Below the pieces are notes generated by a model. It was not told the origin of the DNA and ran no database searches. It saw only the letters and a list, made by a program, of their open reading frames with translations. From positions 1 to 52,423 of IMG/VR virus record IMGVR_UViG_3300001918_000036: a stretch of 52,423 bases of DNA. One strand, 5' to 3'. The DNA is from a virus. Shown one piece after another: positions 20,692 through 52,041 of the stretch. How positions within the stretch are numbered: position 1 is the first letter of the stretch; the number at the start of each line of letters is the position of its first letter. Made by a program: the position numbers and the translations under genes.

Positions 20692-21132
20692 CTACTGCAA
20701 GGTTCCGTCTGGATTGAAAACCAGCCCCAGGAGGTTGTGCTCATTGGCCGATTGCTGCCACTCTGGTACGTTTGCAGACTGGTCGGCGGCCACCGCAATC
20801 AGGTCGTTCCAAAGAATTTTGATGATTGCTACGTCCGGCGCATCCACGATCAACGCTGGCATCACGCAGGCGAATTCTCCAGGGTGCGATCGCCGCAGCG
20901 CAATGATAGAAGGAAGTGCCAAGAACTTGCGCCGGAATTCTGGCCAGAAGGGGATTGGTGAGGGAGGATCGTAAACTGCCGGGGGAATTTCGGCTAAATC
21001 AGTGTAAAAAATTGCCCGTCCGTTTGGGTGGGCCGGAGATGGCAACTCCACCCTGACTTGCAGCGTCCCTGATGGTTCTGGGGGCACTTTCAGTTTTCCG
21101 TTTTCATCGAAGATTAATTCCTGGATTATCAC
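20692..21132 (-). CDS. Hypothetical head-region protein
   Basis: A 146-residue protein between fibre-like genes and scaffold. It starts MIIQELIFDENGKLKVPPEP, a strand-rich segment, and carries PSPIPFWPEFRRKFLALPS and EWQQSANEHNLLGLVFNPDG. The short spacing (three bases) to the preceding gene supports co-translation. I do not recognise it; it may belong with the capsid-fibre set. Confidence 0.55.
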   Translation of the reverse strand: MIIQELIFDENGKLKVPPEPSGTLQVRVELPSPAHPNGRAIFYTDLAEIPPAVYDPPSPIPFWPEFRRKFLALPSIIALRRSHPGEFACVMPALIVDAPDVAIIKILWNDLIAVAADQSANVPEWQQSANEHNLLGLVFNPDGTLQ

Positions 21133-21135
21133 GGG

Positions 21136-21777
21136 TTACGCTCCTACGGTTGTGGTGGGGCGGTAGTGGCAAAGCGCCAGGTTTTCGAGCCACCAGGCTC
21201 CAATGTCACCCACCACGCACTGAACGATGATTTGTACCGGATTAGCCGAGTAATCGAAAGAAACACGGTCCTGCACGGTACTGGTCGTTGTGAAGCTGGC
21301 GTTGTTGTTAGTGTCTAGCGGCAACATTAGGTTGTTGGACAGGAAAACTAATTGATAAAGGCCGCAAAAATGGCCTGAAAAAAACGGCGTACTCATCCAC
21401 CGCTTTGCAACGTTGCTGGATCCAACCGACTCATTAACATAGCCTTCCACACGAACGTTGAGGCCGTTTCCAACACGGACCCCAAAGTTGAGATAACACT
21501 GCAAATAATCGCCAGCCTCAAACGTTCCGGCTGGAAATGTATGGTCGAACAGGGGCAAGTATTGAGACCCGGAAACGGAAGTTGTAAATTCGGTAGTGGG
21601 CCGTTGAAGGCTATTAATAATCGGCCCACCGCCCGCTGGAAGGTTTTTGATGGCTGCCGCATCAAGGCGATCGCTATCAGTAAGGCCGCTCAGCAGATCG
21701 CGCACAGCGACCCGCGAAGTGACCTCGCTCATCATCTCGTCTTTGCCAGTGCTACCAACGCGAACTAGCCGTGTCAT
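21136..21777 (-). CDS. Capsid-fibre-like protein B
   Basis: A 213-residue protein whose first 50 residues share a pattern with the preceding gene: a GSTGKDEMMSEVTS-type start followed by LTDSDRLDAAAIKNLP (compare the DGRLDPTLMP of the neighbour). The rest is a beta-sandwich-like domain (SGSQYLPLFDHTFPAGTFEA; VRVGNGLNVRVEGYV). The common N-terminus suggests one virion-attachment module carrying different outer domains. Its start overlaps the neighbour's stop. Confidence 0.6.
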   Translation of the reverse strand: MTRLVRVGSTGKDEMMSEVTSRVAVRDLLSGLTDSDRLDAAAIKNLPAGGGPIINSLQRPTTEFTTSVSGSQYLPLFDHTFPAGTFEAGDYLQCYLNFGVRVGNGLNVRVEGYVNESVGSSNVAKRWMSTPFFSGHFCGLYQLVFLSNNLMLPLDTNNNASFTTTSTVQDRVSFDYSANPVQIIVQCVVGDIGAWWLENLALCHYRPTTTVGA

Positions 21778-23213: not shown

Positions 23214-24248
23214 CTACTTGCCCCTAGATATAGAGGTTAAGCGTAATCCTTGTTCCAAAAAGTACTTATTTAGAGCAGAAGTGTATTGCTCATCTGGCTC
23301 TATCTCAACAATGTTTGATAGCTCCTTACCTGCGTTGGACAAGCACACACCATACACCTTGAGGAGCCTGTCTGGTTGCCAATCACCAGGATTATCTGGG
23401 ACAAGCCCCCAGAGCGAACCTCCATATCTCAGGCAACATCCCACCGTATTGTTGTGCGCGATTGCAGGCCCGTAATTCATAAAAGAGTTGTAGTCAGAAA
23501 TTATCAAGCCATACTCTTGCAAAACATTGAGTTCCCCAAAGCTCAATCCATATCGCGAAAGGGAGTTCTGGGCAGCACTGCCAAATGAGGGTACACGGCA
23601 ATCAAGCATATAGATATTATTTTCCATCACTACGGATAAAGAACATAGTCGACGGAAGAGATTTGCAGCTCGACTGTCTAGCTGGCCCATGAGTTTCACC
23701 GTTCTAATTGAGAAGGACTCAGGCTTCTTGATTTCTCCGGCGAGAATTTTGCCAAACAGAATTTGCATTTCTTCGCTGCTCTTACCGCATGCCTCTTTGC
23801 TGAAGCTATCCAGCCAATCGTCACTCATTTGGGGCCCTTTCTCATCCTCCTCAATCTCTGAACTTTTAGCTTGAGATGCTGTCGAAGAGAGTTCTTGAGC
23901 GGCAACGTTGCACACCTTGTCAAGGTTGATTTGCTCTTGAATAACCCGCTGAGTATACTTAGCCGCAGCAATGCGAGCATATGCAGGGTCTACGCTCATT
24001 TGGCTGGCTACCTGCTCTGCACTGGTGTTTATTAACATAGTACGAGCTTGGGATTCAGCACGCGCCTCTGCGGCTTTTCCTTCCATAATGGCTGCGGGCC
24101 AGTCAGCAGCGGCTGAACAGAGTTGCCCAAAAGCTTTCCAAAAATTTTTACGTATTGGGGCTGGTAATGCTGTTGCTCCATCAACCACTAAGTCAGCAAC
24201 AGCGTCAGTGATTTTGGATAAAGCACCTGTGGTTTGTTCCTCACTCAT
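23214..24248 (-). CDS. DUF2806-like accessory protein
   Basis: From the ATG of MSEEQTTGAL the protein is 344 residues. Features that I associate with DUF2806 are the region LPAPIRKNFWKAFGQL, a repeated-helix stretch with EARAESQARTML and AAAKYTQRVIQEQINLDK, and the DWLDSFSKEACGKSSEEMQI / FGKILAGEIKKPESFSIRTV block. Family members appear in accessory contexts and their function is unknown. The AT-rich gene separates the MuF block from the fibre genes. An upstream start at 24284 would lie inside a 38-bp palindrome and is less likely. Confidence 0.65.
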   Translation of the reverse strand: MSEEQTTGALSKITDAVADLVVDGATALPAPIRKNFWKAFGQLCSAAADWPAAIMEGKAAEARAESQARTMLINTSAEQVASQMSVDPAYARIAAAKYTQRVIQEQINLDKVCNVAAQELSSTASQAKSSEIEEDEKGPQMSDDWLDSFSKEACGKSSEEMQILFGKILAGEIKKPESFSIRTVKLMGQLDSRAANLFRRLCSLSVVMENNIYMLDCRVPSFGSAAQNSLSRYGLSFGELNVLQEYGLIISDYNSFMNYGPAIAHNNTVGCCLRYGGSLWGLVPDNPGDWQPDRLLKVYGVCLSNAGKELSNIVEIEPDEQYTSALNKYFLEQGLRLTSISRGK

Positions 24249-24278
24249 GTCTTGAAACCTAGAATTAGTGCAGTTAGA

Positions 24279-24316
24279 AGACAAGCAATTGAGGCGATCG
24301 CCTCAATTGCTTGTCT
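24279..24316. repeat. 38-bp perfect palindrome centred on HIP1
   Basis: Nineteen-base arms starting AGACAAGCAATTGAGGCGA meet at GCGATCGC with no loop. It sits between the DUF2806-like gene and the small ORFs upstream. It may terminate or cruciform; there is no strong T-run, so it is listed as a repeat. Confidence 0.85.
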
Positions 24317-32278: not shown

Positions 32279-32557
32279 TTATTCCGGAGATACCATCTCC
32301 TTGAAAAGTTTGCCTGCGCTGAATCCAGGAACCGTTGTGGCCGGGATTTCTATCGTTTCTCCTGTTTTTGGATTGCGGCCTTCGCGGGCCTTGCGCTCGC
32401 GGGGCTCGAAAGAACCGAAGCCTACCAGAACGACCTTTTCGCCCTGGGATACAGCTTCCATGATGGACTCCATCGCAGCAGTCACGATGCCTTCAGCAAC
32501 CTTCTTTGTGACATTGGCTTTCTCAGCCACTTTGTCCACCAGTTCACCTTTGTTCAT
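32279..32557 (-). CDS. HU-family DNA-bending protein
   Basis: A 92-residue HU/IHF-like protein: MNKGELVDKVAEKANVTKKV at the start, VVLVGFGSFEPRERKAREGR with the conserved GFGSF turn and basic arm, NPKTGETIEIPA as the DNA-intercalating arm, and FSAGKLFKEMV at the end. Length is exactly that of cyanobacterial HU. Placed next to the integrase and with its own ribosome site and terminator, it may assist site-specific recombination or packaging, or substitute for host HU during infection. Confidence 0.95.
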   Translation of the reverse strand: MNKGELVDKVAEKANVTKKVAEGIVTAAMESIMEAVSQGEKVVLVGFGSFEPRERKAREGRNPKTGETIEIPATTVPGFSAGKLFKEMVSPE

Positions 32558-32686
32558 AGTCAGATCTCCGAAAGGCTTGATTCAGGGGAATTGTAGCAAC
32601 AGTTCAGAAGTTTGAGACATGTTTGAGTTTTTTCTGCTTTTGGCTGCGATCGCCCTAACCACAAGCCTTTTCCTGGATTCTGCCAC

Positions 32687-33487
32687 TCACAACCCCAGAT
32701 AGTTGCTGCTGGAGTCGTCTGGAGAGGCTTCCAGGTATACGTTCGTCACCGCAATGCTGCTGTGGCCCAGAGTATCGCGCACCAACTGTAGAGGGGCACC
32801 CCCAGCTAGCGAGTGTTGGGCATGAGCGTGCCGGAGCCAGTGCGGAGATACGTTCTCACCCAATCCAGCACGTCTGGCCGCTGCCTTCACCACAGCCCAC
32901 AGCGTAAACCGTGTCAGTCCGAAAACTGGGGCCGTTTGGGGGCGATCGCCCCGCAACTGACGTACCAAACCCCACACCTGCTCTGGCAACAGTACCACCC
33001 GCGATTTGCCGCCCTTGCCCTGGAGTCGGCACTGCACCGCACCGCCGTCGCGTTCCTGAAGGTCAGCCCAGGTAAGGCTGCACACCTCAGAGGCTCTAGC
33101 ACCCGTGCCATACAGCAGGGCCAGCACTGCTTTATCCTGAGCTTCCGGCACGTCCAGTAGTGCTCGCACTTGGTCACGGCTGAGAATTCTCCCAGCCAGA
33201 TTCATCCGGCCTACTTTCAGCTTCACCGCAGCAGCCGGAGATTTGGGAAGTGCCCCCACCTCCACAGCAAAGGCCAGAAAGCTTTTCAGGGCTGCCAGCT
33301 TGTTGCGGCGCGTGGTGTGTTTTAGGTGGCCCAGGCTATCGCTCCACGCCTGGACATCCTCCAAGCTCACTTCCGCCAGAGGCTTTTTCACAAACTCTTT
33401 AAACTGCCGGATCGATAGGGCGTAGTTGTTCTGGGTGGTGGTTGGGCGATCGTGCAACCACTGCTCAATCAGTTTCTGCTCTTGCAT
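32687..33487 (-). CDS. int: Tyrosine recombinase (phage integrase)
   Basis: From MQEQKLIEQWLHDRP, which has GGAGGA upstream, the protein is 266 residues. A SAM-like N-terminal core-binding domain (1-95) precedes the catalytic domain with R131 in TGARASEVCSL, K161 in GKGGKSRVV, H216-x-x-R219 in PHWLRHAH, H242 in LGHSSIAVT and Y251 in TNVYLEA: the full active set. It resembles XerC-type recombinases. It would integrate or excise the element or resolve dimers. A longer frame starts at 33520 but lacks a ribosome site. attP could not be identified. Confidence 0.93.
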   Translation of the reverse strand: MQEQKLIEQWLHDRPTTTQNNYALSIRQFKEFVKKPLAEVSLEDVQAWSDSLGHLKHTTRRNKLAALKSFLAFAVEVGALPKSPAAAVKLKVGRMNLAGRILSRDQVRALLDVPEAQDKAVLALLYGTGARASEVCSLTWADLQERDGGAVQCRLQGKGGKSRVVLLPEQVWGLVRQLRGDRPQTAPVFGLTRFTLWAVVKAAARRAGLGENVSPHWLRHAHAQHSLAGGAPLQLVRDTLGHSSIAVTNVYLEASPDDSSSNYLGL

Positions 33488-33716
33488 TTTCGGGTTCCTC
33501 CACTGATGGGGTTCCCGCACACAACTGGGGTTGTGTTGAAACTGTTGAGAGTTTTGTTTAGAAGTTTTGTGAAGTTGGGAGGTTTTTTCCGTGGATCCTC
33601 GCGTATGCCTTTAGGCGTAGATGGCTACGCTTGGATCAGCAATTTACGATCGGAAATTGCTGACTCGCTTCGCCTCACCTCACTACCCTGACGGTTCGCC
33701 GTTCCTGAAAATCCGT
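33488..33716. promoter_or_regulatory. Divergent region between integrase and sigma factor
   Basis: About 230 bases with T/G-rich tracts and an imperfect hairpin near 33600-33640 (GCGTATGCC...GGCGTA, and TACGC). No gene is seen. It must hold the promoters of both neighbours and could contain the attachment site, but no core is recognisable without the host junction. Confidence 0.4.
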
Positions 33717-34508
33717 ATGCCATCTATTCATGTCTGCGAGCGCGCCTGGGCGGAGGTCAGGCGTGTTAACCCAAAGCAGGCAAACCCAAAGCAGAAGACA
33801 GCAGAGCTTTTTGCCCTCTACCTGGAAACCCGTTCCACTCTTCTACGCAATCAAATCTCCCTTATCAACCAGGGCCTGGTGGTGGCGATCGCTGAGCGAT
33901 ATGCCGCCCATTGTTCGCTTCCCCTGGAAGATCTGATTCAGCTAGGCCACATCGGCCTGATCCGCGCCATTGAGAAGTTCGATCCCGCTGAGGGAGTTGC
34001 CTTTAGCAGTTTTGCGGTGCCCTATATCAAGGGTGAGATGCAACATTTTCAACGGGATAAGAAAAACCTGGCTAAGGTGCCCCGCCGCTGGCAGGAAACC
34101 AGCGATAGCGCCCGAATGCTGCAATCCAAGCTGGCCAAAGCTGGCCGCGCTGACCTGAGCCTGGATGAAGTTGCCCATAAGGGTCTAAATCTCCCCCCTG
34201 ATCAGTGGAAGGCCATTCATCAGGCAACACAAAGCCAGGTCTGGATCAGTCTGGACGAAGAGAACCACGATTTAGCGGCTACCCCTGGCCTATCCCTGGA
34301 AGCTCGCGAACAGATCGAAGCAATGCAGGATGCAGCCATTGCAGCCCTGGATTCTTTGCCAGAGTTGGAGCGGGCCTGTTTATTGGAGCGCTTCTGGGGA
34401 GAGTTGGGTGAAGACGTTATTGGGAAGCGACATCGCATCAGCACCGTTGAGGTGCAGCAGGCGATCGCCAGTGGTTTGCAACACTTACGGGAGATTGCCG
34501 CCGTATGA
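33717..34508 (+). CDS. Phage-encoded sigma-70-family factor
   Basis: Starting at MPSIHVCERAW gives 263 residues. Region 2 lies at about 45-115 with NQGLVVAIAERYAAH, LEDLIQLGHIGLIRAIEKFD and VAFSSFAVPYIKGEMQHF, the core-binding and -10-recognition part. Region 3 follows (120-170) and region 4 at 205-263 (ALDSLPELERACLLERFWGE; then a helix-turn-helix). Overall this resembles cyanobacterial group 3 sigma factors. It is coupled to the next gene by ATGA and is divergent from the integrase. It may redirect host polymerase to phage promoters. Confidence 0.88.
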   Translation: MPSIHVCERAWAEVRRVNPKQANPKQKTAELFALYLETRSTLLRNQISLINQGLVVAIAERYAAHCSLPLEDLIQLGHIGLIRAIEKFDPAEGVAFSSFAVPYIKGEMQHFQRDKKNLAKVPRRWQETSDSARMLQSKLAKAGRADLSLDEVAHKGLNLPPDQWKAIHQATQSQVWISLDEENHDLAATPGLSLEAREQIEAMQDAAIAALDSLPELERACLLERFWGELGEDVIGKRHRISTVEVQQAIASGLQHLREIAAV

Positions 34509-35263: not shown

Positions 35264-35497
35264 ATGGCCTCAAAATCCTGGCACCAGAAGCTTCTGTGCA
35301 CTGAAACTACCTTTCATACGCTGGCCATAGCCTGTGTGTTGAAGGCACTTACGGCTCCTTCTGGAGAGGCAATGGCCTGGATTGCTGCGGCTGGAAGTGT
35401 TTCGGCACTGGGGCGATCGATGCCAACCGAGAAGGTGGACGATGCACTCTCAATTCCACTGGTGAAACCCCAGGAAAACAGCCCTCCTGAGTTCTAG
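35264..35497 (+). CDS. Small hypothetical protein with one hydrophobic stretch
   Basis: A 77-residue protein with GGAG upstream. The middle (TFHTLAIACVLKALTAPSGE; AMAWIAAAGSVSALG) is hydrophobic and could be one membrane span, followed by a polar tail. It is co-directional with the sigma operon. No family recognised. Confidence 0.5.
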   Translation: MASKSWHQKLLCTETTFHTLAIACVLKALTAPSGEAMAWIAAAGSVSALGRSMPTEKVDDALSIPLVKPQENSPPEF

Positions 35498-35506
35498 GAG
35501 GTGTCT

Positions 35507-36037
35507 GTGCAGAAATCCCAGAAACCATTGCGCCCCGGCCTGATTTGCGAATTCACTGGGGAGCTTCCACTGACCAAAGGTAGGGCCACCCATGCATTCC
35601 GAGGATTCAAGCTTAATCGCGCCACACCACTACGCCCAGATCTCAAAGAGGATCGAGGCATCGTTGCGGCGGTACTCCGCCAAGAACCCTCCATTGACCG
35701 CAAAAAGTTGGCCGATCGCCTCTTCTATAGCCGCCCTACTCACTGGGTCAGTTTTGAGGCCCAAATTCTTGGCAATCCTCAGCGGCGCGTATCACTCCTG
35801 AAACTAGCCCTGGCCCTGGATGAACCGGGCCGCGACAGCAATTCCCTGTTGCATAAGATGCTCAAATTCTGCGCATTCCAGGCCACTGAGTTGCAGCAAG
35901 GAGTTCTGATCTTCAACGACGGACCTTTCAAGATCTACGAAGAATCACTCCTGATGACCGGAGGACCTCTTACAAAGCTCTACTGGACTACTTCTCTTCT
36001 CATCAAATTCGAGGATTTGCTTCAACCTCCTCTATAA
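35507..36037 (+). CDS. Hypothetical protein at the end of the sigma operon
   Basis: The GTG at 35507 has AGGAGG five bases upstream and gives 176 residues; a GTG two codons earlier is too close to the ribosome site. The protein is basic at the N-terminus (KSQKPLRPGLICEFTGELPL; KGRATHAFRGFKLN) and alpha/beta afterwards (FYSRPTHWVSFEAQILGNPQ; LQQGVLIFNDGPFKIYEESL). It is followed directly by a strong terminator. I do not recognise the family. Confidence 0.6.
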   Translation: MQKSQKPLRPGLICEFTGELPLTKGRATHAFRGFKLNRATPLRPDLKEDRGIVAAVLRQEPSIDRKKLADRLFYSRPTHWVSFEAQILGNPQRRVSLLKLALALDEPGRDSNSLLHKMLKFCAFQATELQQGVLIFNDGPFKIYEESLLMTGGPLTKLYWTTSLLIKFEDLLQPPL

Positions 36038-36040
36038 CAG

Positions 36041-36081
36041 CCAAACAAAAGCCCCCGGCATGGCTGGGGGCTTTTGTTTGG
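36041..36081. terminator. Bidirectional rho-independent terminator
   Basis: A 16-bp perfect stem (CCAAACAAAAGCCCCC and complement) with a nine-base loop. It ends the sigma operon on plus and the repressor unit on minus. Confidence 0.9.
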
Positions 36082-36086
36082 TGACA

Positions 36087-36102
36087 CTCCGGAACTCCGG
36101 AG
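36087..36102. repeat. CTCCGGA-AC-TCCGGAG palindrome copy (intergenic)
   Basis: A 16-bp palindrome just beyond the terminator; one of five dispersed copies. Outer bases (CACTCCGG...CCGGAGTGC) extend the symmetry slightly, as at 6270-6301. Confidence 0.8.
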
Positions 36103-36106
36103 TGCA

Positions 36107-36307
36107 TCACTTGAAGCTTTCAGGGTTATCTCTCACCCAGGCTATCGATTGCTCAATCGTGTAACTGAGAGCATTTGCCAGCACCGCCTGAATCTCAGGG
36201 TGCGGATTCTTACTCGCAATCTTGAGCAGGCATTGCGCCTGGTACTGCCGAAGATTGGCGATCGCCTCTGACTGGGTAATGCTGAGGGGATTCACAAGAT
36301 CACTCAT
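36107..36307 (-). CDS. Small protein coupled to repressor
   Basis: MSDLVNPLSITQSEAIANLR begins a 66-residue helical protein. The ATG overlaps the stop of the HTH gene (ATGAGTGA). The body (QYQAQCLLKIASKNPHPEIQ; NALSYTIEQSIAWVRDNP) has no known motif. It could be a co-regulator or anti-repressor. Confidence 0.55.
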   Translation of the reverse strand: MSDLVNPLSITQSEAIANLRQYQAQCLLKIASKNPHPEIQAVLANALSYTIEQSIAWVRDNPESFK

Positions 36308-36563
36308 TAAGCTGCACAAGCTCTGAAAGCGTGCAAACACCAAAATCTTCTTGACTCAAATCAGTAATAGCAACGCGAATCTCCTCGATCGCATCACCTC
36401 CAATCTCAGGAAGCGTATCCTGCGCTTTCAACCTGGCAATAGTCGTGGGATGCTTCCCCAGTCGCTCAGCCAAAGCCTTGTTTGTAATCTTCCTGCGGGC
36501 CATCGTTTCACGCAGAAGCCAGGATACCTTGCTCACTTCCGATGCACTTAAAACAGCATTCAT
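36300..36563 (-). CDS. Cro/CI-type HTH regulator
   Basis: An 87-residue protein with an XRE-type helix-turn-helix: VSWLLRETMARRKITNKALA, then ERLGKHPTTIARLKAQDTLP. GGAG lies seven bases before the ATG. It is divergent from the small early genes, and the region between holds three operator-like repeats, so it probably represses that promoter and its own. Short for a CI, right for a Cro/C.AhdI-like regulator. Confidence 0.8.
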   Translation of the reverse strand: MNAVLSASEVSKVSWLLRETMARRKITNKALAERLGKHPTTIARLKAQDTLPEIGGDAIEEIRVAITDLSQEDFGVCTLSELVQLNE

Positions 36564-38903: not shown

Positions 38904-39077
38904 GTGACACGGAGATGACACGACAATGACAGCCGCCAAACCTATAGGATTTTCAAGGACTGCAAGAATTCGTGACTACCAAAACCGCCGCAACTACGGC
39001 AAAGGAAATGACAACGTGACACAAGAGAATGACAGCTTAGTGACAAAAATTCAGGCCGGTGACACCGAGAATGTCAC
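38904..39077 (+). repeat. TGACA/TGACAC word cluster
   Basis: TGACA begins at 38905, 38916, 38927, 39009, 39017, 39030, 39041 and 39060, with one inverted TGTCAC near 39072. Further copies lie at about 39351 and 39431. The cluster spans the untranslated leader and the first 50 codons, so it is not explained by a protein repeat alone. Confidence 0.65.
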
Positions 39078-39648
39078 CTTCCGCCAAATCGCTGAATGGC
39101 TCGACGAAAAATCCAACACGGTCAGTGCCCGCTACTTTCCAAAGGTCGTAATGGCACACGAAGGGCTGAAAGGCCACCCCAGCCTTCAATCGGCCCCCGG
39201 AAAACCCACCGGATACGCCGCCAAGTGCATCGCTGAGTACCTGGACATGAACAAAGACTTTGAGGGCTTTGTCACCGTCCTGAAAGGTAGATACAGCAAG
39301 CCTCTCGCTGCCGTCGATGGCGATGTTGTCATCGCTGAAGTGATGGACGATGACACGCTTCAGGTAAGTGGTGGGGGCGATCGCCGCGAGATTGCCGGGA
39401 AACTCGCTCTACGCAAGCAACAGAGCGAAGATGACACGGACGGAATGCTGGGGGAACTGGCGGTTACCGTCCAGCAGTTCAAGGAGCAGGACCAGGATTT
39501 TTTCGGAAGCGAAGACGAGCGGCTCTATCAGGAAGCGTACCAGCGCAAACTAGCCGAACTGGGAAAAGGGCTAAAGCGCAAGATGATCGAGCGCAAAGCC
39601 GAACTGGACGCAGAGAAAGCTTTCAAGGAGTTGATGGAGGAATCGTAA
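38926..39648 (+). CDS. Hypothetical protein with TGACAC-rich coding sequence
   Basis: A 240-residue protein. Residues 45-125 contain a winged-helix-like part (TFRQIAEWLDEKSNTVSARY; KPTGYAAKCIAEYLDMNK; GFVTVLKGRYSKPL). The C-terminus is a charged helix (YQRKLAELGKGLKRKMIERK). The coding strand has about ten TGACA words, clustered from just before the start codon to 39064. It opens the operon that leads to the membrane ATPase. A regulatory DNA-binding role is possible. Family unknown. Confidence 0.6.
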   Translation: MTAAKPIGFSRTARIRDYQNRRNYGKGNDNVTQENDSLVTKIQAGDTENVTFRQIAEWLDEKSNTVSARYFPKVVMAHEGLKGHPSLQSAPGKPTGYAAKCIAEYLDMNKDFEGFVTVLKGRYSKPLAAVDGDVVIAEVMDDDTLQVSGGGDRREIAGKLALRKQQSEDDTDGMLGELAVTVQQFKEQDQDFFGSEDERLYQEAYQRKLAELGKGLKRKMIERKAELDAEKAFKELMEES

Positions 39649-39656
39649 TTCTCGCT

Positions 39657-39767
39657 TTGGTGCTGGCCTTCCTGGCCACCGCCATTTCCCTGGTGGGGCT
39701 GTTTGCCCTCATGCGTCAGCAAGCCCCACCTCCTGTAAACCCTACGCAAACGGAGAATCTTGGATGA
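39657..39767 (+). CDS. 36-residue membrane peptide
   Basis: An ORF reading VLAFLATAISLVGLFALMRQ then a Pro-rich tail, stopping in the start codon of the next gene (ATGA). GGAGGA lies at the end of the preceding gene. The start is uncertain: TTG at 39657 or GTG at 39660, both rather far from the ribosome site. Overlap coupling and the clean single span support it. Too short for most gene callers. Confidence 0.45.
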   Translation: MVLAFLATAISLVGLFALMRQQAPPPVNPTQTENLG

Positions 39768-39958
39768 CTACTAATGACTACGCTTGCCTGGCTGATTTTT
39801 CATGGCGCTGCTTCCGCACCTGGGATAGCTTCTACCGCCGTGCCAAAGATCCGCAGGATGCCCATCAGTTTCGCATACAGGCCCGTTACTTTCGCCGCTG
39901 TGCAATTCGGTGGGAGGCCCGATTGCTCAGATCTACCAATCAAGTCAAAGCCGCATGA
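39764..39958 (+). CDS. Small basic, aromatic-rich protein
   Basis: A 64-residue protein rich in R, W, F and Y (LADFSWRCFRTWDSFYRRAK; HQFRIQARYFRRCAIRWEAR). It overlaps both neighbouring membrane-peptide genes by ATGA, so the three are translated together. The composition suggests an RNA-, DNA- or lipid-surface-binding helix pair. Unknown family. Confidence 0.6.
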   Translation: MTTNDYACLADFSWRCFRTWDSFYRRAKDPQDAHQFRIQARYFRRCAIRWEARLLRSTNQVKAA

Positions 39959-40092
39959 AAAGTCTATTCGACGATTTCTTTGCTGGGTTGGGATTGGCTC
40001 TAGCTGCCTACTTTTTCCTCAACGGCCTGGGCCTTTGGCCAGAGCCACCAAAGCCCTTCCCCCAGCAAACCCACCAAACTCCCAAAGGGTAA
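39955..40092 (+). CDS. 45-residue single-span membrane protein
   Basis: MKSLFDDFFAGLGLALAAYF begins the ORF, giving one transmembrane helix and a Pro/Gln-rich tail (PEPPKPFPQQTHQTP). The ATG overlaps the preceding stop. Its topology (short span plus Pro-rich tail) repeats that of the peptide at 39657. Confidence 0.55.
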   Translation: MKSLFDDFFAGLGLALAAYFFLNGLGLWPEPPKPFPQQTHQTPKG

Positions 40093-40159
40093 GCGATCGC
40101 CCTAGTTTCTCAGGCCACGGCGATCGCCCCCTATCCCTTCTGCAAAGGACATTTAAACC

Positions 40160-40549
40160 ATGACACAAACAGCCACCAAAGACCTCACACTGCAAGAATT
40201 TCAGCAGGATATGGGAGCCGAGCGAATCACCGACAGCTCGCACCTGATGCCCGTCGCCAACTTCACCGATTGCAAACAGGCCGCTGCCCTGGTGGAGAAG
40301 TTTGGCGATAAGGATTTGGCAAAGCTCTCCGACATTGACCAGGCCGCATTGCTCTGTATCCTCTCTGCCATCGTCTACCGGGATGTATGCACCACTGGCA
40401 AGCAGCCGCTCACTATCTGGGAAGCCGCCGATCGCGCCATTCCTGAGGATGAGGATCACACCTCAGAGGCAATGGAAGACGCTCTGGAGGCGCTCGAAGG
40501 CATTGACCCGGATGATGCGATCGCCCTGATTCAGTTTTTGGTGCAGTGA
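40160..40549 (+). CDS. Hypothetical acidic helical protein
   Basis: A 129-residue soluble protein with AAGGA upstream (KDLTLQEFQQDMGAERITDS; AAALVEKFGDKDLAKLSDID; MEDALEALEGIDPDDAIALI). It is acidic and helical. It lies in the same operon as the membrane proteins, one base before the next ORF region. Unknown family. Confidence 0.6.
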   Translation: MTQTATKDLTLQEFQQDMGAERITDSSHLMPVANFTDCKQAAALVEKFGDKDLAKLSDIDQAALLCILSAIVYRDVCTTGKQPLTIWEAADRAIPEDEDHTSEAMEDALEALEGIDPDDAIALIQFLVQ

Positions 40550-40550
40550 T

Positions 40551-41057
40551 ATGGATCAGCTTTTCAATCCTCTTACTTCGCCTGGAACGACGATTTTGCT
40601 AGGGCTGAGTGCCGTAGCCGGGGGCGTATCTCTTTCGATGGTGCGATTGGAAACGGCAATGGCAGAACGAACCCACACGCAGATAGCGCTGCAACGTGCT
40701 GAGGTCTGCCGGATTTTGCCCCCCACTGAGAAGTTGGAGCTGGGAGCCTACTACTTCCAGCCCACTACCTTCAATCCAGACGGAGGCCGTAGCGGCGTCC
40801 TTTTGGAGGAAGGGCGTTACGTGTGCGATCGCTTTGGTGCTACCGCCCGCATTGAGCGCGGTGGGTACGCGCAATTCATGGCGATCGCTGCGGATATCAC
40901 CGCATTCAATAGGGTGCTTCAGATACGCCTGGACGATCCGGCTAATCCGGATGCCAACCAGGAAACTCAGGTGCAACGCGCCCACAACATGGGGGTCTGG
41001 AAAGAACCCCCGCAGGCTACCGAGCCTGAAAAGCCCGATTTCTTTGATGTTCAATAA
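40551..41057 (+). CDS. Membrane-anchored protein of ATPase operon
   Basis: A 168-residue protein. Residues 11-28 (TTILLGLSAVAGGVSLSM) are one transmembrane helix near the N-terminus, and the remainder (CRILPPTEKLELGAYYFQPT; GVLLEEGRYVCDRFGATARI; AADITAFNRVLQIRLDDP) forms one soluble alpha/beta domain. The short N-terminal span leaves the bulk on one face of the membrane. It directly precedes the four-span protein and the ATPase, so a complex of the three is likely. No family recognised. Confidence 0.65.
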   Translation: MDQLFNPLTSPGTTILLGLSAVAGGVSLSMVRLETAMAERTHTQIALQRAEVCRILPPTEKLELGAYYFQPTTFNPDGGRSGVLLEEGRYVCDRFGATARIERGGYAQFMAIAADITAFNRVLQIRLDDPANPDANQETQVQRAHNMGVWKEPPQATEPEKPDFFDVQ

Positions 41058-41071
41058 ACGGAGAATTAACT

Positions 41072-41782
41072 ATGGCAGTTCGTAGAAAGCCCAAGCCTCA
41101 AGCCGCCAAGCCTGAAGCCCCACCCTCAGCCGATCCCTTTGCCAGTGAGGAGAAGGAGGATCAAGGCATCATCCTGAAGCTTGCCAAGCTTATGCAAGAC
41201 ATCTTCAGTCACAAGGGGATGTTTTGGTTGGGTGTGTCGGTTGCAGTTGTCTGCTTCTTAGGGAACCTCTGGTTTTACTACAGCCTCTTTGGGGAGTTAA
41301 CCGAATATGCAATCTGGCAGTGTGCAGGGCTAGCCCTGCTCGTATCATGCTCAACCACCTTGTTTGAGCTAATGCCAGTCATCATGACCCAGGGGCGGCG
41401 AAACCGACTTCGCCAAATTCTTCACGCTGGGGCCAAGCCTCGGGATCTTCCAGAACTGAATCCAAAGGTCGTAGGCGATGCCGAGGATCTAATGAAGGCA
41501 TACCGGAACAGCGACAAAGAAACCAAAGAGTTTTTCGAGATGGGCCGATGGATCGCCATCTTCCTCGAAGCCATAGTGGGCTTCATCTTCATGGGATCTT
41601 TAGGGTCCGGTTTCGGTGCCCTCATCAGCTTGGGCCTATTCATCGCCTCGATCTTTGGGTGCGAGTGGGGAGTTTCGCTTGCTCTCCGGGCCGCTGAATG
41701 GGAGTTGCCCCCGGCTATTCGCCAACAACTCGATGAACTCCTTGCCAATGCTGGCAAAGCCCTGAATTTGAAGCGCATCTAA
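41072..41782 (+). CDS. Four-span membrane protein of ATPase operon
   Basis: A 236-residue protein. After a Pro/Ala/Lys-rich cytoplasmic start it has spans at about 50-70, 80-104, 160-178 and 181-203 (GMFWLGVSVAVVCFLG; LALLVSCSTTLFELMPVI; IAIFLEAIVGFIFMGSL; GLFIASIFGCEWGVSL). A basic loop of about 55 residues (QGRRNRLRQILHAGAKPRDL) lies between spans 2 and 3. GGAG precedes the ATG. It could form the membrane base for the downstream ATPase. It ends at a terminator-like hairpin. Not assignable to a known channel or secretion family by eye. Confidence 0.7.
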   Translation: MAVRRKPKPQAAKPEAPPSADPFASEEKEDQGIILKLAKLMQDIFSHKGMFWLGVSVAVVCFLGNLWFYYSLFGELTEYAIWQCAGLALLVSCSTTLFELMPVIMTQGRRNRLRQILHAGAKPRDLPELNPKVVGDAEDLMKAYRNSDKETKEFFEMGRWIAIFLEAIVGFIFMGSLGSGFGALISLGLFIASIFGCEWGVSLALRAAEWELPPAIRQQLDELLANAGKALNLKRI

Positions 41783-41799
41783 CCCTCAAATAGCTACGA

Positions 41800-41829
41800 A
41801 AAAGGCGTGAGGGGCAACTCACGCCTTTT
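41800..41829 (+). terminator. Hairpin AAAAGGCGTGA / TCACGCCTTTT
   Basis: An 11-bp stem with an eight-base loop and T-run in the gap before the ATPase gene. It may reduce readthrough, so the ATPase level may differ from that of the membrane proteins. Confidence 0.75.
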
Positions 41830-41856
41830 ATTTGCCCATTACCACAGGAACTTAGT

Positions 41857-43785
41857 ATGAGCATTCGTCGTAATCGTAACCGCGATCGCCAGAATGAAGC
41901 CGTAGCAGAGCCACTCATTCAACCCACCACACCCCCGCCCCGGATCGAGCGCCGCAAGCCTAATGAACGGAATGGCTACCTCGATCCAGACCAAACCCTG
42001 GTGAACTTCGCCATTCGCGAAAAAGGGATGACCTTTGAACAACTCATCGCAGAAGACCCCAGCCGCTTACTCCGAACCTGGCTGAAGCTCTACAGAAAAG
42101 CCAGGGCGACGGCGATCGCCACCGCAGTACTGGGCGCTGCTGCGACGGTGGTGGGGGTGGGAGTTGGGGCCACACCGCTGATGGTCGCCGGAATCGCCAC
42201 CATCGGCGGGTCTGGAATGCTGGCAAAGCACCACAACGCTGGGGTGAAGGCGTGCGAGCTGGAAGCCGAGATTTTAGACGAAATCCGGCCCATCCTGGAA
42301 CTGTTTCACACACTGGAAACCCGTGGGGCAAACCCCTCCGACCTGGTAAGCCTGTACGACAGATTGATCCGTCAGTACGCTGCACAAAACCCCGTATTCG
42401 GGGCCATCGGGGATCCCGCTGGGCTGAAAGAATTCTTCGAGGTGGAGCTAGCCAAGCACCTCACCGTTTCGAGCGTTGCAGCCACCCAGACAGGGTTTGC
42501 TGCTGCTGCCAAACCTCAGCCACCAGCGATCGCCCCCGCAGCTCCACCACCTGTCCAACCTCCCTCGCCTTCTGTTGCACCAGTGATTCATGGGCAGCCA
42601 GAAGCACCCATCGCCCAATCTGCCCATGAATCATCGACTGAAATTCAGGTTGCGACCGAAATTCAGACCGTGGAAGCGGAGGTGGAGGTGGAGGTGCCCA
42701 CCACTGACCTGGCAGGTGTATTGGCAGAGCAGTTGAAGTCTCTGGTGATTGCGGCTTTCCCACGCACTGGCAAAGGCATCACCGTAGCCCACGGAGGCCG
42801 CAGAGTGAAGGAGATGTACCCCGACCTGGAGATCTGGCTACTTGACCCAAAGAATGAGGCGAGTGAAAGCGGCTACTGGTCGTTCGTTGACCTGGATAAA
42901 AGGATTCATTTCGACCTAAGGGATTTCTGCTTGGACATTCCGAAGACCGAAACCCTGGTCAATGACTTCCTGACTCGGTTCAACAATTCGACCGCAGTGG
43001 CCAAGCTCCTGATTGTGGACGAATTCGTGGCCTTGAATGCTCGACTCTCCAGTGAGTTCATGAAACGCCTAAAAGATTTTCTGGTGGCCATTTCCTCTTC
43101 TGGGGAATCCAGCTCGGGTGACGCAAGCCAGAAGCCTCAAGGCAAGTTTGCCTGGGTAATCACTCAATCCCCCTACGTTGCAGATCTGGGCTTCCGCACC
43201 AAAGGACAGCGAGCGGCCTTCAACCGAATTCTGCTATTCAATGACACCAATCAGGGCTATCTAACACTGGCTGAAGGGGCTGATTTTTGCCCAAAGATTA
43301 GAGACGAAGAAAAGCAGAAATTGTTGTCTTCAACAGGCCGCGCTTTCTACTACTCACTGGGCGATCGCTGGGGTGCAATTTGCAACTACCAAGGATTTGC
43401 GCCGGATGCTAGGACTTCACCCAATTCGCACCCGTTCAGCGCTCAACCCGTGGTCAACCAGCAAGCAACTGAAGCTGAGGTAGAAGTAGCCACAGAGGAA
43501 GTAGCAACAGCGGTTTTTGATACAGAAGAAATCGCTGCAAAACTCCTCAACTGGCTTAAAGGCAGAGGGCAAGAGTTTTTCACGGATGGATTCATTTCTG
43601 GCCCTGTTATTGTCAAAAACTTTGGGTACTGGAACAAGGGTAAAACTTATAGGGTTTCCAAGCCAGAACTCACCCAGCTTGTAATGCATTTAGTTCATAT
43701 CAAAGAAGTGGAAGTTGTCGCAGGGAAAGGAGTAAGACTGCTCTCATTTGAGGATGAGTTGGGCCTGTTCGATGATGTGGCGTAA
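41857..43785 (+). CDS. VirD4/TraD/FtsK-like membrane-associated ATPase
   Basis: A 642-residue protein with AGGA seven bases before the ATG. Hydrophobic residues 83-125 (ATAVLGAAATVVGVGVGA; LMVAGIATIGGSG) form a membrane hairpin. A P/A/Q-rich linker follows. The ATPase domain has Walker A AAFPRTGKG (299-307) and Walker B LLIVDEF (D388, E389), with a WVITQSP sensor-like strand, the order seen in coupling-protein and FtsK/HerA ATPases. The C-terminal 80 residues look like a winged helix (LLNWLKGRGQEFFTDGF). It would move DNA or protein at the membrane. No relaxase or pilus gene is visible, so the role is unclear. Confidence 0.75.
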   Translation: MSIRRNRNRDRQNEAVAEPLIQPTTPPPRIERRKPNERNGYLDPDQTLVNFAIREKGMTFEQLIAEDPSRLLRTWLKLYRKARATAIATAVLGAAATVVGVGVGATPLMVAGIATIGGSGMLAKHHNAGVKACELEAEILDEIRPILELFHTLETRGANPSDLVSLYDRLIRQYAAQNPVFGAIGDPAGLKEFFEVELAKHLTVSSVAATQTGFAAAAKPQPPAIAPAAPPPVQPPSPSVAPVIHGQPEAPIAQSAHESSTEIQVATEIQTVEAEVEVEVPTTDLAGVLAEQLKSLVIAAFPRTGKGITVAHGGRRVKEMYPDLEIWLLDPKNEASESGYWSFVDLDKRIHFDLRDFCLDIPKTETLVNDFLTRFNNSTAVAKLLIVDEFVALNARLSSEFMKRLKDFLVAISSSGESSSGDASQKPQGKFAWVITQSPYVADLGFRTKGQRAAFNRILLFNDTNQGYLTLAEGADFCPKIRDEEKQKLLSSTGRAFYYSLGDRWGAICNYQGFAPDARTSPNSHPFSAQPVVNQQATEAEVEVATEEVATAVFDTEEIAAKLLNWLKGRGQEFFTDGFISGPVIVKNFGYWNKGKTYRVSKPELTQLVMHLVHIKEVEVVAGKGVRLLSFEDELGLFDDVA

Positions 43786-43935
43786 TGGCGTAAGGAAGGT
43801 GCTGTTTTCCGGCGTAAGGTGGCGTAAGGCCAGCGTAAGGGAGCCTGTAAGGCCCATTCTTCCGTTCACTGGCGTAAGGATTGTAAGGCCAGTGTAAGGA
43901 TTGTAAGGCCAGCGTAAGGGATGTCATTACGCCAC
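43777..43935. repeat. Iteron-like array of ten GTAAGG units in inverted 10-bp ends
   Basis: Between 43790 and 43919 GTAAGG occurs ten times in one orientation, mostly preceded by GC or T (GGCGTAAGG, AGCGTAAGG, TTGTAAGG) at irregular 8-25 base spacing. The array is bounded by GTGGCGTAAT (43777-43786) and its exact complement ATTACGCCAC (43926-43935). The ATPase stop codon lies in the left end. No convincing gene covers it. Iteron-type replication origins and partition sites have this look. Confidence 0.8.
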
Positions 43936-44049: not shown

Positions 44050-44081
44050 AAAAGCCCCCAGCTCTACACCGGGGGCTTTTT
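44050..44081. terminator. Rho-independent terminator
   Basis: AAAAGCCCCC and its complement around an 11-base loop, followed by TTTTT on plus and a T-run on minus; separates the array from the convergent gene. Confidence 0.85.
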
Positions 44082-48445: not shown

Positions 48446-48531
48446 ACCTTGCTGGGGCGACACACTCACACCACTTGCCGCGATCGCCCCTTTCCTCTTC
48501 GTTCGTTTTCAGTTCGTTTGGAGTTCCCCTC

Positions 48532-51500
48532 ATGACCTACACCGGATCGCAGGAGATTAGACAGGAAGCATCTTCCTCAGTTCCCTGTCCTCTTTGCGAA
48601 CGTGATCATTACTGCTACCTGTTCCTGGATGTGCAGGGGCAGGTTTTTAAGAGCATTTGTCAGTGGACCGACCACCCACCCGAGGGTTGGGATAGGGTGG
48701 GTACCGCCAAGGATAACCGTGGCATTTTCTGCCGACAGGGCTACAACCGTAGCCAGCGGCGCACATTCCCTGATTACCTCACTTTGAGTCCTCGCGACTT
48801 TGGGGATATTCCCCAGTGGCAACCGACTGACCCTGGCGATCGCCCCATTATTGCGGGTGACTTGGTTCTCTTCCACTCCGGAGTTCCGGAGGGTGTCTGG
48901 GTGGTAGTGAAAACTCGCGGGGGTAAACACCAGGGGCAGCACCAAATCCTGGTCACAGTTCGCCGCCCTGATACCCATCACGGTGGCATGGAGGTACCAG
49001 AGTCGGATTTGGCGATCGCCACCACTGATCCAACCACTGGGGCCGTTGAGCACTTCATTGAGTACCACTACCACGGAGCAGATCTGCTGCCACTGGGAAA
49101 AGTCGTGCGTACCCAGTGGACTGACCGACGGCGGGCATATGAAAAATTCCGCAAGTCAAAGCAGATTCGCCCCTATCACTGGCTTGGCTCCCAGGCTGAA
49201 GGCTTCTGGAGTTCTGGAAAGGGCGATCGACCTTGGCCCCTGTACCGTGAAATTGAGGCCAAAGATGAAATCCTCAGAGGTGGAGTCGTGTTCGCCGTCG
49301 CGGGTGAACAGGCTGTGGAAACATACCGTGCTATGGGGCTGGTTGCAACCTCCTGCCAGGGTGGCGAATCGAACTTTAAGGACTTCATTGAGCGACTAGA
49401 AGCTGTATTCCAGGAAGCTAAGGGCTTACAACTCAAGCCCGTTTTGGTAATTCACCCCGACCACGACCTTACGGGTGAAACCAAGTTTGCGGAGTTACTG
49501 AAGGAATGCGAATTCAAGAAGATTCCAGCGGTGATGCTCGAACCGCTGGATCTCTGGAATGAGCTTCCCCCTGGGGGCGACATCTGGGATGTCGTCAATC
49601 GCAGCGGCATGAATACCGCCACGATCTTGCAACGGCTCGAAGGTGCGGTGGATGAAGCCATTGATAGGCAGGAAGGCGAGATATTCGCCCGCCAACAGCG
49701 TGAGCGCTGGCAGGCCCCTGAAGTCTACCGGGGGGAGTTGGGCTACTGGCGTGAGGATAAAGAGACTGGGAAGCGGTACTTTCGACCCCAGGCTGATTTT
49801 GATTTTCAGGTGGAGCGCGAGCTGATTTCTGAAGACGGCGGTGGGTTGGTGCTCCAAATCAAACGCACCGACGATTCCAGCCAGCGCCGGGTTTACATCA
49901 AATCCGCAGAGTATAGCTCCACTCAGCTTTTCACCAACGCCCTGAAACGAAGCCTGGGTGGTGGTGTGGTGTGCAACCTATCCAGCGATCGCCTGCAAGC
50001 CCTCATCCGTGTGCGGCTGCACGAATACCGCACCACACGCAGGGGCAAAGCTTATCGACTCATCGACCGCATCGGCCAGCAACCAGACGGTTGCTGGGTT
50101 TTTGAGCACATCCAATTCACCAAACACGGTGAGTCAACTAATGAAGATAGGAGTTTGTGGGTGTTTAATCCAGAAATCACGGGCAACAATGCCCATTTCA
50201 AACCACCAGCTATCCCACCGCATGACCCAGGAGCATTGCCCAAACTCGTTGCTGCAATGCAACGGGCCTTCGGCTCCAACTTTGCCCCGGCCATGCTGAC
50301 GTTGGGCTATGCCGCCGCCGCCTGCCACTATCAGGAGATTCAGGAGAAAGAGGGAGCCTTCCCCATCCTGAACCTGTACGGTGACCCAGGGAGCGGCAAA
50401 ACCACCGCTGCTGAATGTGCCCTTTCCCTGGTGGGCCAGCACAAGGAAGGCATGATGGTCGAGGTTTCAGTTTCAGCCGCCTACGAGCGACTGAAACTTG
50501 CTGGGGGCCTGCTGCACTGCCTGGATGACCCAAAGCGTGATGAGCTGCTGGATGAGTTCCTGAAGGGCTTCTACAACGCCAAAGCCAGGGTGGTCAGGGG
50601 CAAAGATGCCGCTGGTTTCAACACTCAGAAACCACATAGCCCCCTAATGGTGACTTCAAACCATGCGTGTGGGGAGAACAGCGCGGCCACCCAGAGCCGC
50701 CTGGTTCGTCTTTTCTTCCCCAAGACAACTGACGGCGATGGCTCCGCATTTCGGGAGCTGCCACGACTTCAGGAAGAGGCCAGCGCCTGCTTCACTGACC
50801 TGGTGAAACTGGGCTATCCAGCAGAGGCCATCTACGAGCTGGAACAAGAAATTGCAGAGCATGTCCCCAATGCCCACTTAAGGATCGCCAAATCCCTGGC
50901 TTTGGTACTTTGCTATGCCATGCGGGTTGCAGCTCTGGCTGGAATCGACGGTCAAATCCTGAAGGACTACGTGATGAACGTAGTCGCCGCCCAGGTGAAC
51001 GACCCTGATGAATCTGGGGATTCGCTGAGAGACTTCCTGGAGAAGGTATTCACCCTGGAGTCCGAGGCCAAAATTGGTGAGTGGAATTTCCGGTGGGTGG
51101 AAAAGAAGGATGGCGATCGCGCCCTCACCATCTACATGCCTGGTGTATGGGCGGCTCTTGATAAGAATTTCAAGGTTTCCTACAACAAGCGCATCATTGA
51201 AGCCCTGCTGCAATCGAAGGGACTGAGCAAGACACGGGGCAACTTCGACAGTGACGAGGATCAATCCCGGCACTACAAACGGATGAAGCTCACCATGAAT
51301 GAGGAGAGCTTAGCCGACTGCAAGCCAGAGCGAACCACCCGATGGTGCTACGAACTTCCTGCTTCCCTCCTGAAGGAGTACAGCGAAAAGTCTGGAAGCT
51401 CACAAAAAAGATCATCAAGATCATCAGCCGATTTTGAAGAGCCTCAAGGCATTGATACGCCTAGCGAGGAGGTTGATGATCTAAAAGATCATCAGAGATC

Positions 51501-52041
51501 ATCAGAGATCATCAAGGCCCCCACGCCTGAAAATGCCGCCCAGGGGTCTGATGATCTTTTTGCCCCCGTGATGACATCTGATGATCTCATAGATCATCAA
51601 CCTCAACCCCAAGCAGAGCATGGGGTTGATGCCTCTCAAAAGGACGTGATGATCTTGATGATCTCAAATACGCCTACCCCCCAACCTAGCTTTACAACCG
51701 TTAACAATCCCTCAGCAAGCTCCGGAACTCCGGAGGCGATCGCCACAGAGATCGCCCCTGGTGACTTCGTTGTGATTTCAGCCAGTGGAAGTTGGATTAA
51801 GGCCGGGAGCGATCGCATCGAATGGAACGACATTCCCCACGGCTTCCGTGACCGGGAAACGAAGGAAGTACCCCTGAGCCGCTTCGAGGATATGGAGTTG
51901 CTGCAAGAACTGACAGACCGCTCGCTGGTGATTGGCATCTCTGAGGATGGCAAGCGGGTGAGGGTTCGTAACTGCACCACGAACCGAATCAGCGTGTTTG
52001 GGCGAGGGTTTGTCCACCTAATCAAGAAAGGAGGCTCCTGA
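48532..52041 (+). CDS. Primase-helicase-like replication protein (zinc, TOPRIM-like, SF3-type ATPase)
   Basis: From MTYTGSQEIRQEASS (GGAG upstream) the protein is 1169 residues. A cysteine cluster (C19, C22, C28, C43) resembles a primase zinc finger. A TOPRIM/DUF3854-like region lies at about 245-340 (VVFAVAGEQAVETYRAMGL; VLVIHPDHD). A DUF927/D5-like ATPase has Walker A GDPGSGKTT (617 on) and a CLDD acidic pair near 665, followed by MVTSNHACGEN as a sensor-like motif. Residues about 955-1045 are a linker coded by GATGATC repeats. A small domain closes the protein (FVVISASGSWIKAGSDRIEW). It would initiate or unwind DNA for phage replication. No phage polymerase was found, so host polymerase is probably used. 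Confidence 0.8.
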   Translation: MTYTGSQEIRQEASSSVPCPLCERDHYCYLFLDVQGQVFKSICQWTDHPPEGWDRVGTAKDNRGIFCRQGYNRSQRRTFPDYLTLSPRDFGDIPQWQPTDPGDRPIIAGDLVLFHSGVPEGVWVVVKTRGGKHQGQHQILVTVRRPDTHHGGMEVPESDLAIATTDPTTGAVEHFIEYHYHGADLLPLGKVVRTQWTDRRRAYEKFRKSKQIRPYHWLGSQAEGFWSSGKGDRPWPLYREIEAKDEILRGGVVFAVAGEQAVETYRAMGLVATSCQGGESNFKDFIERLEAVFQEAKGLQLKPVLVIHPDHDLTGETKFAELLKECEFKKIPAVMLEPLDLWNELPPGGDIWDVVNRSGMNTATILQRLEGAVDEAIDRQEGEIFARQQRERWQAPEVYRGELGYWREDKETGKRYFRPQADFDFQVERELISEDGGGLVLQIKRTDDSSQRRVYIKSAEYSSTQLFTNALKRSLGGGVVCNLSSDRLQALIRVRLHEYRTTRRGKAYRLIDRIGQQPDGCWVFEHIQFTKHGESTNEDRSLWVFNPEITGNNAHFKPPAIPPHDPGALPKLVAAMQRAFGSNFAPAMLTLGYAAAACHYQEIQEKEGAFPILNLYGDPGSGKTTAAECALSLVGQHKEGMMVEVSVSAAYERLKLAGGLLHCLDDPKRDELLDEFLKGFYNAKARVVRGKDAAGFNTQKPHSPLMVTSNHACGENSAATQSRLVRLFFPKTTDGDGSAFRELPRLQEEASACFTDLVKLGYPAEAIYELEQEIAEHVPNAHLRIAKSLALVLCYAMRVAALAGIDGQILKDYVMNVVAAQVNDPDESGDSLRDFLEKVFTLESEAKIGEWNFRWVEKKDGDRALTIYMPGVWAALDKNFKVSYNKRIIEALLQSKGLSKTRGNFDSDEDQSRHYKRMKLTMNEESLADCKPERTTRWCYELPASLLKEYSEKSGSSQKRSSRSSADFEEPQGIDTPSEEVDDLKDHQRSSEIIKAPTPENAAQGSDDLFAPVMTSDDLIDHQPQPQAEHGVDASQKDVMILMISNTPTPQPSFTTVNNPSASSGTPEAIATEIAPGDFVVISASGSWIKAGSDRIEWNDIPHGFRDRETKEVPLSRFEDMELLQELTDRSLVIGISEDGKRVRVRNCTTNRISVFGRGFVHLIKKGGS
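48876..48891. repeat. CTCCGGA-GT-TCCGGAG palindrome copy (inside primase)
   Basis: A 16-bp palindrome encoding part of HSGVPEGV near residue 115-122 of the primase-like protein; one of five copies. Confidence 0.8.
51405..51697. repeat. GATGATC/GATCATC repeat cluster inside primase linker
   Basis: At least ten GATCATC or GATGATC words lie in about 260 bases, in both orientations. They are read in different frames, giving KRSSRSS, DDLKDHQ, RSSEIIK and MILMIS. The last unit (51648-51665) plus the C-rich and TTTACAA segment (51677-51697) matches the minus strand of 3651-3710. Confidence 0.8.
51720..51735. repeat. CTCCGGA-AC-TCCGGAG palindrome copy (inside primase)
   Basis: Encodes part of SSGTPEAI just after the GATGATC cluster and just before a HIP1 site; one of five copies. 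Confidence 0.8.

Follow-up and report, generated by a model that had tools for sequence, protein, structure and literature searches.

FtsK-type DNA pumps that read a repeat array beside their own gene are known, in the literature examined, from Streptomyces plasmids. The FtsK-like Tra of Streptomyces is a single membrane-spanning protein whose C-terminal winged helix-turn-helix (HTH) reads 7-9-bp clt repeats and which moves double-stranded plasmid DNA, with Spd membrane proteins aiding plasmid spread through septa (PMC3583192, PMC5365140, PMC4170104). In TraB, 8-bp repeats are read by the C-terminal HTH (PMC5365140). TraA of pWTY27 has 688 amino acids (aa) and two spans, and its clt takes in the final 16 bp of traA plus the following 159 bp, with 7-bp repeats (PMC3583192). 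Here, we compare these systems with an operon in the virus record IMGVR_UViG_3300001918_000036, of which the whole stretch of 52,423 bases (the window) represents a cyanobacterial myophage. A first-pass annotation of this DNA had described two tiny single-span proteins, a basic, an acidic, a one-span and a four-span protein and an ATPase, closed by a bounded repeat array, as a candidate undescribed DNA-transfer or maintenance module. Every part of this operon is found, and an FtsK-HerA fold, the same gene order on plasmids and in a second phage, linkage to ParM/ParR on plasmids and a conserved array agree with the proposed role. Taken together, sequence comparisons lean towards the module being a DNA translocase anchored in the membrane and directed by a cis address of its own.

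The 642-aa ATPase combines an N-terminal hydrophobic hairpin (about residues 86-121), an FtsK-HerA motor (279-521) and a winged-helix-like tail (about 555-625). The motifs P302-R-T-G-K-G307, LLDPK332, LLIVDE389 and ITQSP439 place Walker A, DPK, Walker B (DE) and TQ in the order typical of the FtsK-HerA superfamily, and G305, K306, G307, P331, K332, D388, E389 and Q437 are invariant in an alignment of 12 members. An AlphaFold2 model built from eight sequences is good at about residues 280-510 and poor elsewhere. Fold matches of residues 279-521 include the B204 packaging ATPase (Z 13.6), VirB4/TrwK (12.7), FtsK (12.4), TcpA (12.2) and HerA (12.0), and a SIR2/HerA structure is also among the matches of the core. 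Fold alone leaves the family open while fold and motifs combined settle it: the ATPase core is of the FtsK-HerA type, and its earlier description as VirD4/TraD/FtsK-like with Walker A and B is right at the superfamily level. Comparison with family profiles, suggested at the same time, yielded no match of the window ATPase to Pfam, NCBIfam or PHROG models. A match to a curated FtsK, TraG/VirD4 or HerA profile is treated here as an annotation aid and not as a definition of the superfamily; the DUF87 profile was matched only by the relative of the L007 type. By sequence pattern and comparison, the C-terminal stretch of the ATPase looks like a winged HTH.

Searched directly by sequence, the ATPase had no match in PHROGs, Pfam or the phage collection, nor in scans of viral and genome contigs with the single protein; its relatives were recovered only by profile and plasmid searches. 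The one-span/four-span/ATPase cassette, with conserved gene order, is present in other cyanobacterial phage contigs and in dozens of plasmids. Sixteen cyanobacterial plasmids were matched by the ATPase in a plasmid tblastn search, five and then six viral contigs carried relatives in profile scans, and matches, many of them weak, were found in 17 and 40 genomes when 386 and 391 cyanobacterial genomes were searched. The search for the same gene order that the first-pass annotation had recommended led to plasmids and to a second phage of the window type (L012 and its remainder L245), with a capsid protein 66% and three core genes 33-43% identical to those of the window. Two kinds of upstream partner occur among the loci. 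One consists of an actin resembling ParM (Pfam ALP_N) together with a ParR-like protein and small acidic proteins; in the other, an HTH protein is accompanied by one of 210 aa. In the plasmid collection, FtsK-type and DUF87-type cassettes are found only in filamentous genera, though plasmids of unicellular cyanobacteria were included, a pattern that is suggestive but comes from an uncontrolled count. A distant relative of the ATPase, gp140 (L265:37825-39963), is encoded by the cultured Nodularia phage kac65v161; it ends in a winged-helix-like stretch, is preceded by genes for small membrane proteins and lacks an array. Phages of filamentous cyanobacteria thus use the motor more widely; a search for viral proteins more closely related to the window-like ATPase found none. 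The view that ATPases of this kind do not normally belong to phages consequently has to be softened, given relatives in several cyanobacterial phage contigs and, distantly, in kac65v161. Open literature on cyanobacterial plasmid ParM, HerA and TraB contained no description of the cassette, which is weak evidence as most journals lie outside its coverage. Two loci show additional ATPase-like copies: a second, shortened open reading frame (ORF) that seems to lack Walker A is located upstream of the full copy at L014:1731-2219, and contig G667:C186 carries two copies with equal scores about 20 kb apart (35488-36498 and 55815-56825).

The repeat array of the window is located directly 3' of the ATPase stop codon and contains ten GTAAGG units on one strand in 43790-43919 (130 bp), mostly spaced 9-12 bp apart. 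It is the densest 6-mer cluster of the window, in which GTAAGG occurs 28 times on both strands of 52.4 kb versus 15.8 expected. A GTAAGG pattern search in genomes was uninformative because cyanobacterial chromosomes contain GTAAGG short tandem repeats. Short tandem repeats of GTAAGGGT are dispersed over the chromosomes of cyanobacterial genomes G028, G046, G332 and G344 and are unrelated to the module. In other loci, clusters of differing 6-8-mers occupy the same position at the 3' end of the ATPase gene (TGTGGC, TGCCGT, CATCTAC, GACAGA, TGTAGC, CTGTGGG, GGTCAG, GTGTGA, GCGGAAC, GGTTCA, CGAAAC/CTGAAAC, GTCCCGAA and TCTAGATA), mostly in both orientations, and about 12 unrelated iteron sequences occur among the loci. 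In one group of six to seven loci, the repeats lie inside the ATPase coding end, between motor and tail. These arrays had been overlooked by a repeat search with a 14-nt minimum because the repeat units are 6-8 bp long. Scoring each locus by its best 6-mer count in 200 bp near the ATPase stop and calling an array at a score of at least 5, we found an array at 19 of 20 loci with a C-terminal (winged) HTH tail and at 0 of 22 others (Fisher 4.5e-11, a value that overstates independence because the loci are related and tails were assigned to classes in part by visual inspection). The idea was formed on the first loci and then tried on unused ones, 20 new regions and eight named plasmid loci, where the pattern was met again; among the named loci, L258 and L259 score only 4 though arrays are visible by eye, and L256 is ambiguous. 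The other, non-HTH class of tail was matched by its own profile in 17 loci. Across the sequences compared, an array at this conserved position is a general feature of the module. The kind of upstream partner (actin versus HTH/coil) had been considered as a predictor of arrays (11/14 vs 0/25); the ATPase tail superseded it, accounting also for the exceptions L225, G380, L230, L004, L011 and L226. In the joined locus L054+L055 (G356b), a second GACAGA cluster is observed between the actin and ParR genes at about 21103-21203.

Which protein reads the repeats can be narrowed down by comparing loci that share a repeat. Among 23 non-redundant loci, tails are similar in 11 of 11 same-repeat pairs, against 14.5% expected from shuffling and with 0 of 20,000 shuffles reaching this level. 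Outside the tail, the proteins are similar in 27% of these pairs versus 53% expected, which is not above chance. Natural exchanges point in the same direction. L243 and L254 are 78% identical in the motor region and have unrelated tails with different repeats (GACAGA vs TGCCGT), whereas L252 and L003 possess unrelated motors, tails that are 67% identical and TGTGGC in both. The FtsK-type G356b and the DUF87/HerA-type L243/L244 have tail and GACAGA in common without any motor similarity. ParR was rejected as the repeat reader on the evidence of L252 and L017, whose ParM and ParR proteins are 69% and 54% alike and whose repeats differ. Comparison supports that the repeat sequence tracks the C-terminal domain of the ATPase and not its motor, ParM or ParR, and the tail most likely reads the adjacent repeats, which would allow an element to recognise its own DNA. 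From this tail-repeat rule in relatives we infer that the window tail pairs with GTAAGG.

Several observations weigh against a translocase addressed in this way. The window tail has no close relative among the sequences found, so that its pairing with GTAAGG follows only from the rule in other loci, and its predicted local distance difference test (pLDDT) values of about 25-45 indicate low confidence; the winged-helix-like end proposed in the first-pass annotation is borne out by sequence pattern and comparison and not by the structure model. No array accompanies the short or HTH-like tails of L002, L012 and L234, and the array of L007 is weak. Rho-type proteins reach Z 12.6 with the ATPase core. 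An hhalign comparison of the window ATPase with pIJ101 Tra gave a probability of 35% over the stretch from Walker A to DE, a likeness at superfamily level, and membership of the module in the Streptomyces Tra/TraB family has no detectable support from sequence.

In the mechanism we propose, the ATPase tail would bind several repeats of the array and a hexameric motor would assemble at the membrane on double-stranded DNA of the element itself. The motor might then pump DNA through a pore or septum, aided by the one-span and four-span proteins, a step for which Streptomyces Tra acting from clt with Spd proteins would serve as the model. In the window phage, the machinery would act on an extrachromosomal, plasmid-like lysogenic genome, and on many plasmids the ParM/ParR pair of the same operon could add filament-driven positioning. 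As to its purpose, spread of the phage genome to neighbouring cells of the filament is a serious possibility, and movement of copies across the closing septum into both daughters is a plausible one. More tentatively, and somewhat unlikely to hold in every part, the loci could represent an undescribed modular DNA-movement machine of cyanobacterial plasmids and phages with interchangeable DNA-reading C-terminal heads and cognate arrays at their own gene ends, two or more lineages of motor (FtsK-like and HerA/DUF87-like) and frequent coupling to an actin filament, by which a phage in the plasmid state spreads along the filament without lysis.

The array might instead be a parC-like centromere of a partition system in which the membrane ATPase anchors or resolves plasmid copies, with no transfer out of the lineage, and we regard this as plausible though on the doubtful side. 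Linkage to ParM/ParR on plasmids speaks for a partition role: ParM-like actin and ParR-like genes stand at the operon head in many loci, arrays spaced about a helical turn resemble parC and the G356b repeat recurs between the actin and ParR genes. Against it, repeat identity goes with the ATPase tail and not with ParM or ParR, profile searches of the window gave no match to actin or ParR, with ParA likewise not found there, and a plain partition role is less needed because several cassette plasmids also carry a ParA-family gene. An iteron replication origin, or an operator that has nothing to do with the ATPase and lies beside it fortuitously or to control copy number, is an improbable identity for the array. 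Plasmid origins typically contain iterons and the window encodes a plasmid-type replication protein, but the replication gene lies 4.5 kb from the array, and the presence of arrays at nearly all tail-bearing loci, matching the tail type across replicons and in one group running within the ATPase coding end, speaks for a link with the ATPase. HerA-family ATPases are found in defence systems, and the SIR2/HerA fold match together with the occurrence of relatives on both phages and plasmids would suit a membrane-linked exclusion or defence module whose ATPase recognises, clears or blocks competing DNA; this is quite improbable, as each array sits on the element's own DNA and hence would mark self, and no nuclease, toxin or NADase gene was seen travelling with the cassette (locus comparison; PADLOC was not searched). 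A virion packaging or genome-ejection ATPase, suggested by B204 as the best fold match and by cassettes a few genes upstream of terminase in L013, L015 and L018, is very improbable given that the phage encodes its own TerL and most cassette copies are on plasmids without capsid genes.

A translocase serving a lysogenic plasmid state would fit the gene content of the window (Table 1). Genes for a contractile-tailed phage (terminase, portal, head morphogenesis, major capsid, sheath, tape measure and baseplate) fill the first 32 kb on the minus strand, followed by an HU protein, a XerD-like recombinase and a SigF-like sigma factor at about 32-36 kb, the operon and, at the right end, a replication gene. 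The best named relatives of the 1188-aa replication protein are plasmid proteins of Nostoc (41.5% identical over 79%) and Gloeothece. With terminase, capsid, sheath and baseplate genes and a plasmid-type replication gene in one window, the gene content would suit a phage-plasmid, as had been suggested. No relaxase or mating-pair genes were recognised among the window ORFs or by family searches, matching the earlier failure to recognise relaxase, pilus or ParA genes, although the record may be incomplete. A 36.6-kb record with a close TerL relative (85%) is without the ATPase.

Further features of the record and operon deserve mention. The record is linear, and positions 1 and 52423 coincide with gene ends, as if trimmed. 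The XerD-like recombinase is located mid-record, in a stretch (32279-34508) that also encodes the HU-like protein and SigF-like sigma factor, and not at a prophage end, and it resembles the recombinases of module plasmids. Two genes, at 6356-7534 (+) and 23214-24284 (-), seem out of place in or beside the structural block and could represent cargo or defence. A run of GATCATCA repeats is found at 51410-51514, near the end of the replication gene. The 240-aa protein at the operon head was considered as a fused HTH/coil counterpart, a reading that found no support when its profile was compared with that of the HTH protein at other loci. The structure model of the one-span protein was of too low quality for a fold search.

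Table 1. Coordinates of the operon, its array and neighbouring features in the window, with the basis of each assignment
Feature	Coordinates	Strand	Basis
XerD-like tyrosine recombinase	32687..33520	-	Family searches; relatives on plasmids with the module
240-aa protein, family unassigned, operon head; possible HTH and C-terminal coiled coil (putative)	38926..39648	+	ORF; no family match
36-aa single-span protein, Pro-rich tail	39657..39767	+	ORF
64-aa basic protein	39764..39958	+	ORF
60-aa single-span protein, Pro-rich tail	39910..40092	+	ORF
129-aa acidic protein	40160..40549	+	ORF; same-position counterpart in phage contig L012, small acidic proteins in plasmid loci
168-aa one-span protein, core gene 1; conserved Cys pair in soluble part	40551..41057	+	Locus comparison
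236-aa four-span membrane protein, core gene 2	41072..41782	+	Hydropathy, locus comparison
642-aa membrane ATPase, core gene 3	41857..43785	+	Motifs, model, fold match, relatives
Repeat array: ten GTAAGG units on one strand, mostly (G)GCGTAAGG, with GGCGTAAT and its inverse ATTACGCC at the borders; putative site of recognition in cis	43779..43935	+	Sequence, relatives' arrays
Terminator-like hairpin and T run, 3' of array	44051..44081	+	Scan; such sites in the region no commoner than chance
1188-aa primase/helicase-type replication protein	48475..52041	+	Related to cyanobacterial plasmid replication proteins

If true, the proposed system would mean that plasmids and phages of multicellular photosynthetic bacteria widely recognise and transport their own DNA by a route that has been overlooked. 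About twelve natural head/repeat pairs make the putative recognition code directly testable, and the phage case poses the question of whether a virus in lysogeny could pass along a filament without forming particles.

Comparison with known systems places the module among several described machines. The Thermus transjugation ATPase TdtA is likewise an FtsK-HerA DNA pump and serves cell-to-cell DNA donation, but it has a NurA partner and no detected DNA-binding tail or array (PMC5365140). ParMRC partition resembles the module in its tandem short repeats and in the ParM-like and ParR-like genes upstream on many module plasmids; in contrast, the window has no ParM/ParR that could be found, and the module's repeat goes with the ATPase tail. 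The pCW3 protein TcpA and the VirD4/TraG coupling proteins share the superfamily fold and are membrane-anchored, whereas relaxase or type IV secretion genes were not recognised in the window and the module possesses an array and a putative tail-based self-recognition. FtsK and SpoIIIE are RecA-type DNA motors as well, and their C-terminal winged helix reads oriented G-rich 8-mers (KOPS/SRS). Unlike these, the module is element-encoded and has one compact array instead of genome-wide polar motifs, and its FtsK-type members have no Pfam FtsK match. Most similar are the Streptomyces Tra/TraB-clt systems (pSVH1, pIJ101, pWTY27), which also combine an FtsK-type motor of about 650-690 aa and N-terminal spans with short repeats at or near the motor gene (7-8 bp in Streptomyces, overlapping the traA end in pWTY27), accessory membrane proteins (Spd) and mycelial or filamentous hosts; the C-terminal winged HTH of the Streptomyces proteins has a putative counterpart in the module, and the pWTY27 layout matches that of the module. 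The module likely works like Tra/clt, differing in its conserved one-span and four-span partners, in the ParM/ParR genes that join the operon on plasmids and in its cyanobacterial plasmid and phage hosts.

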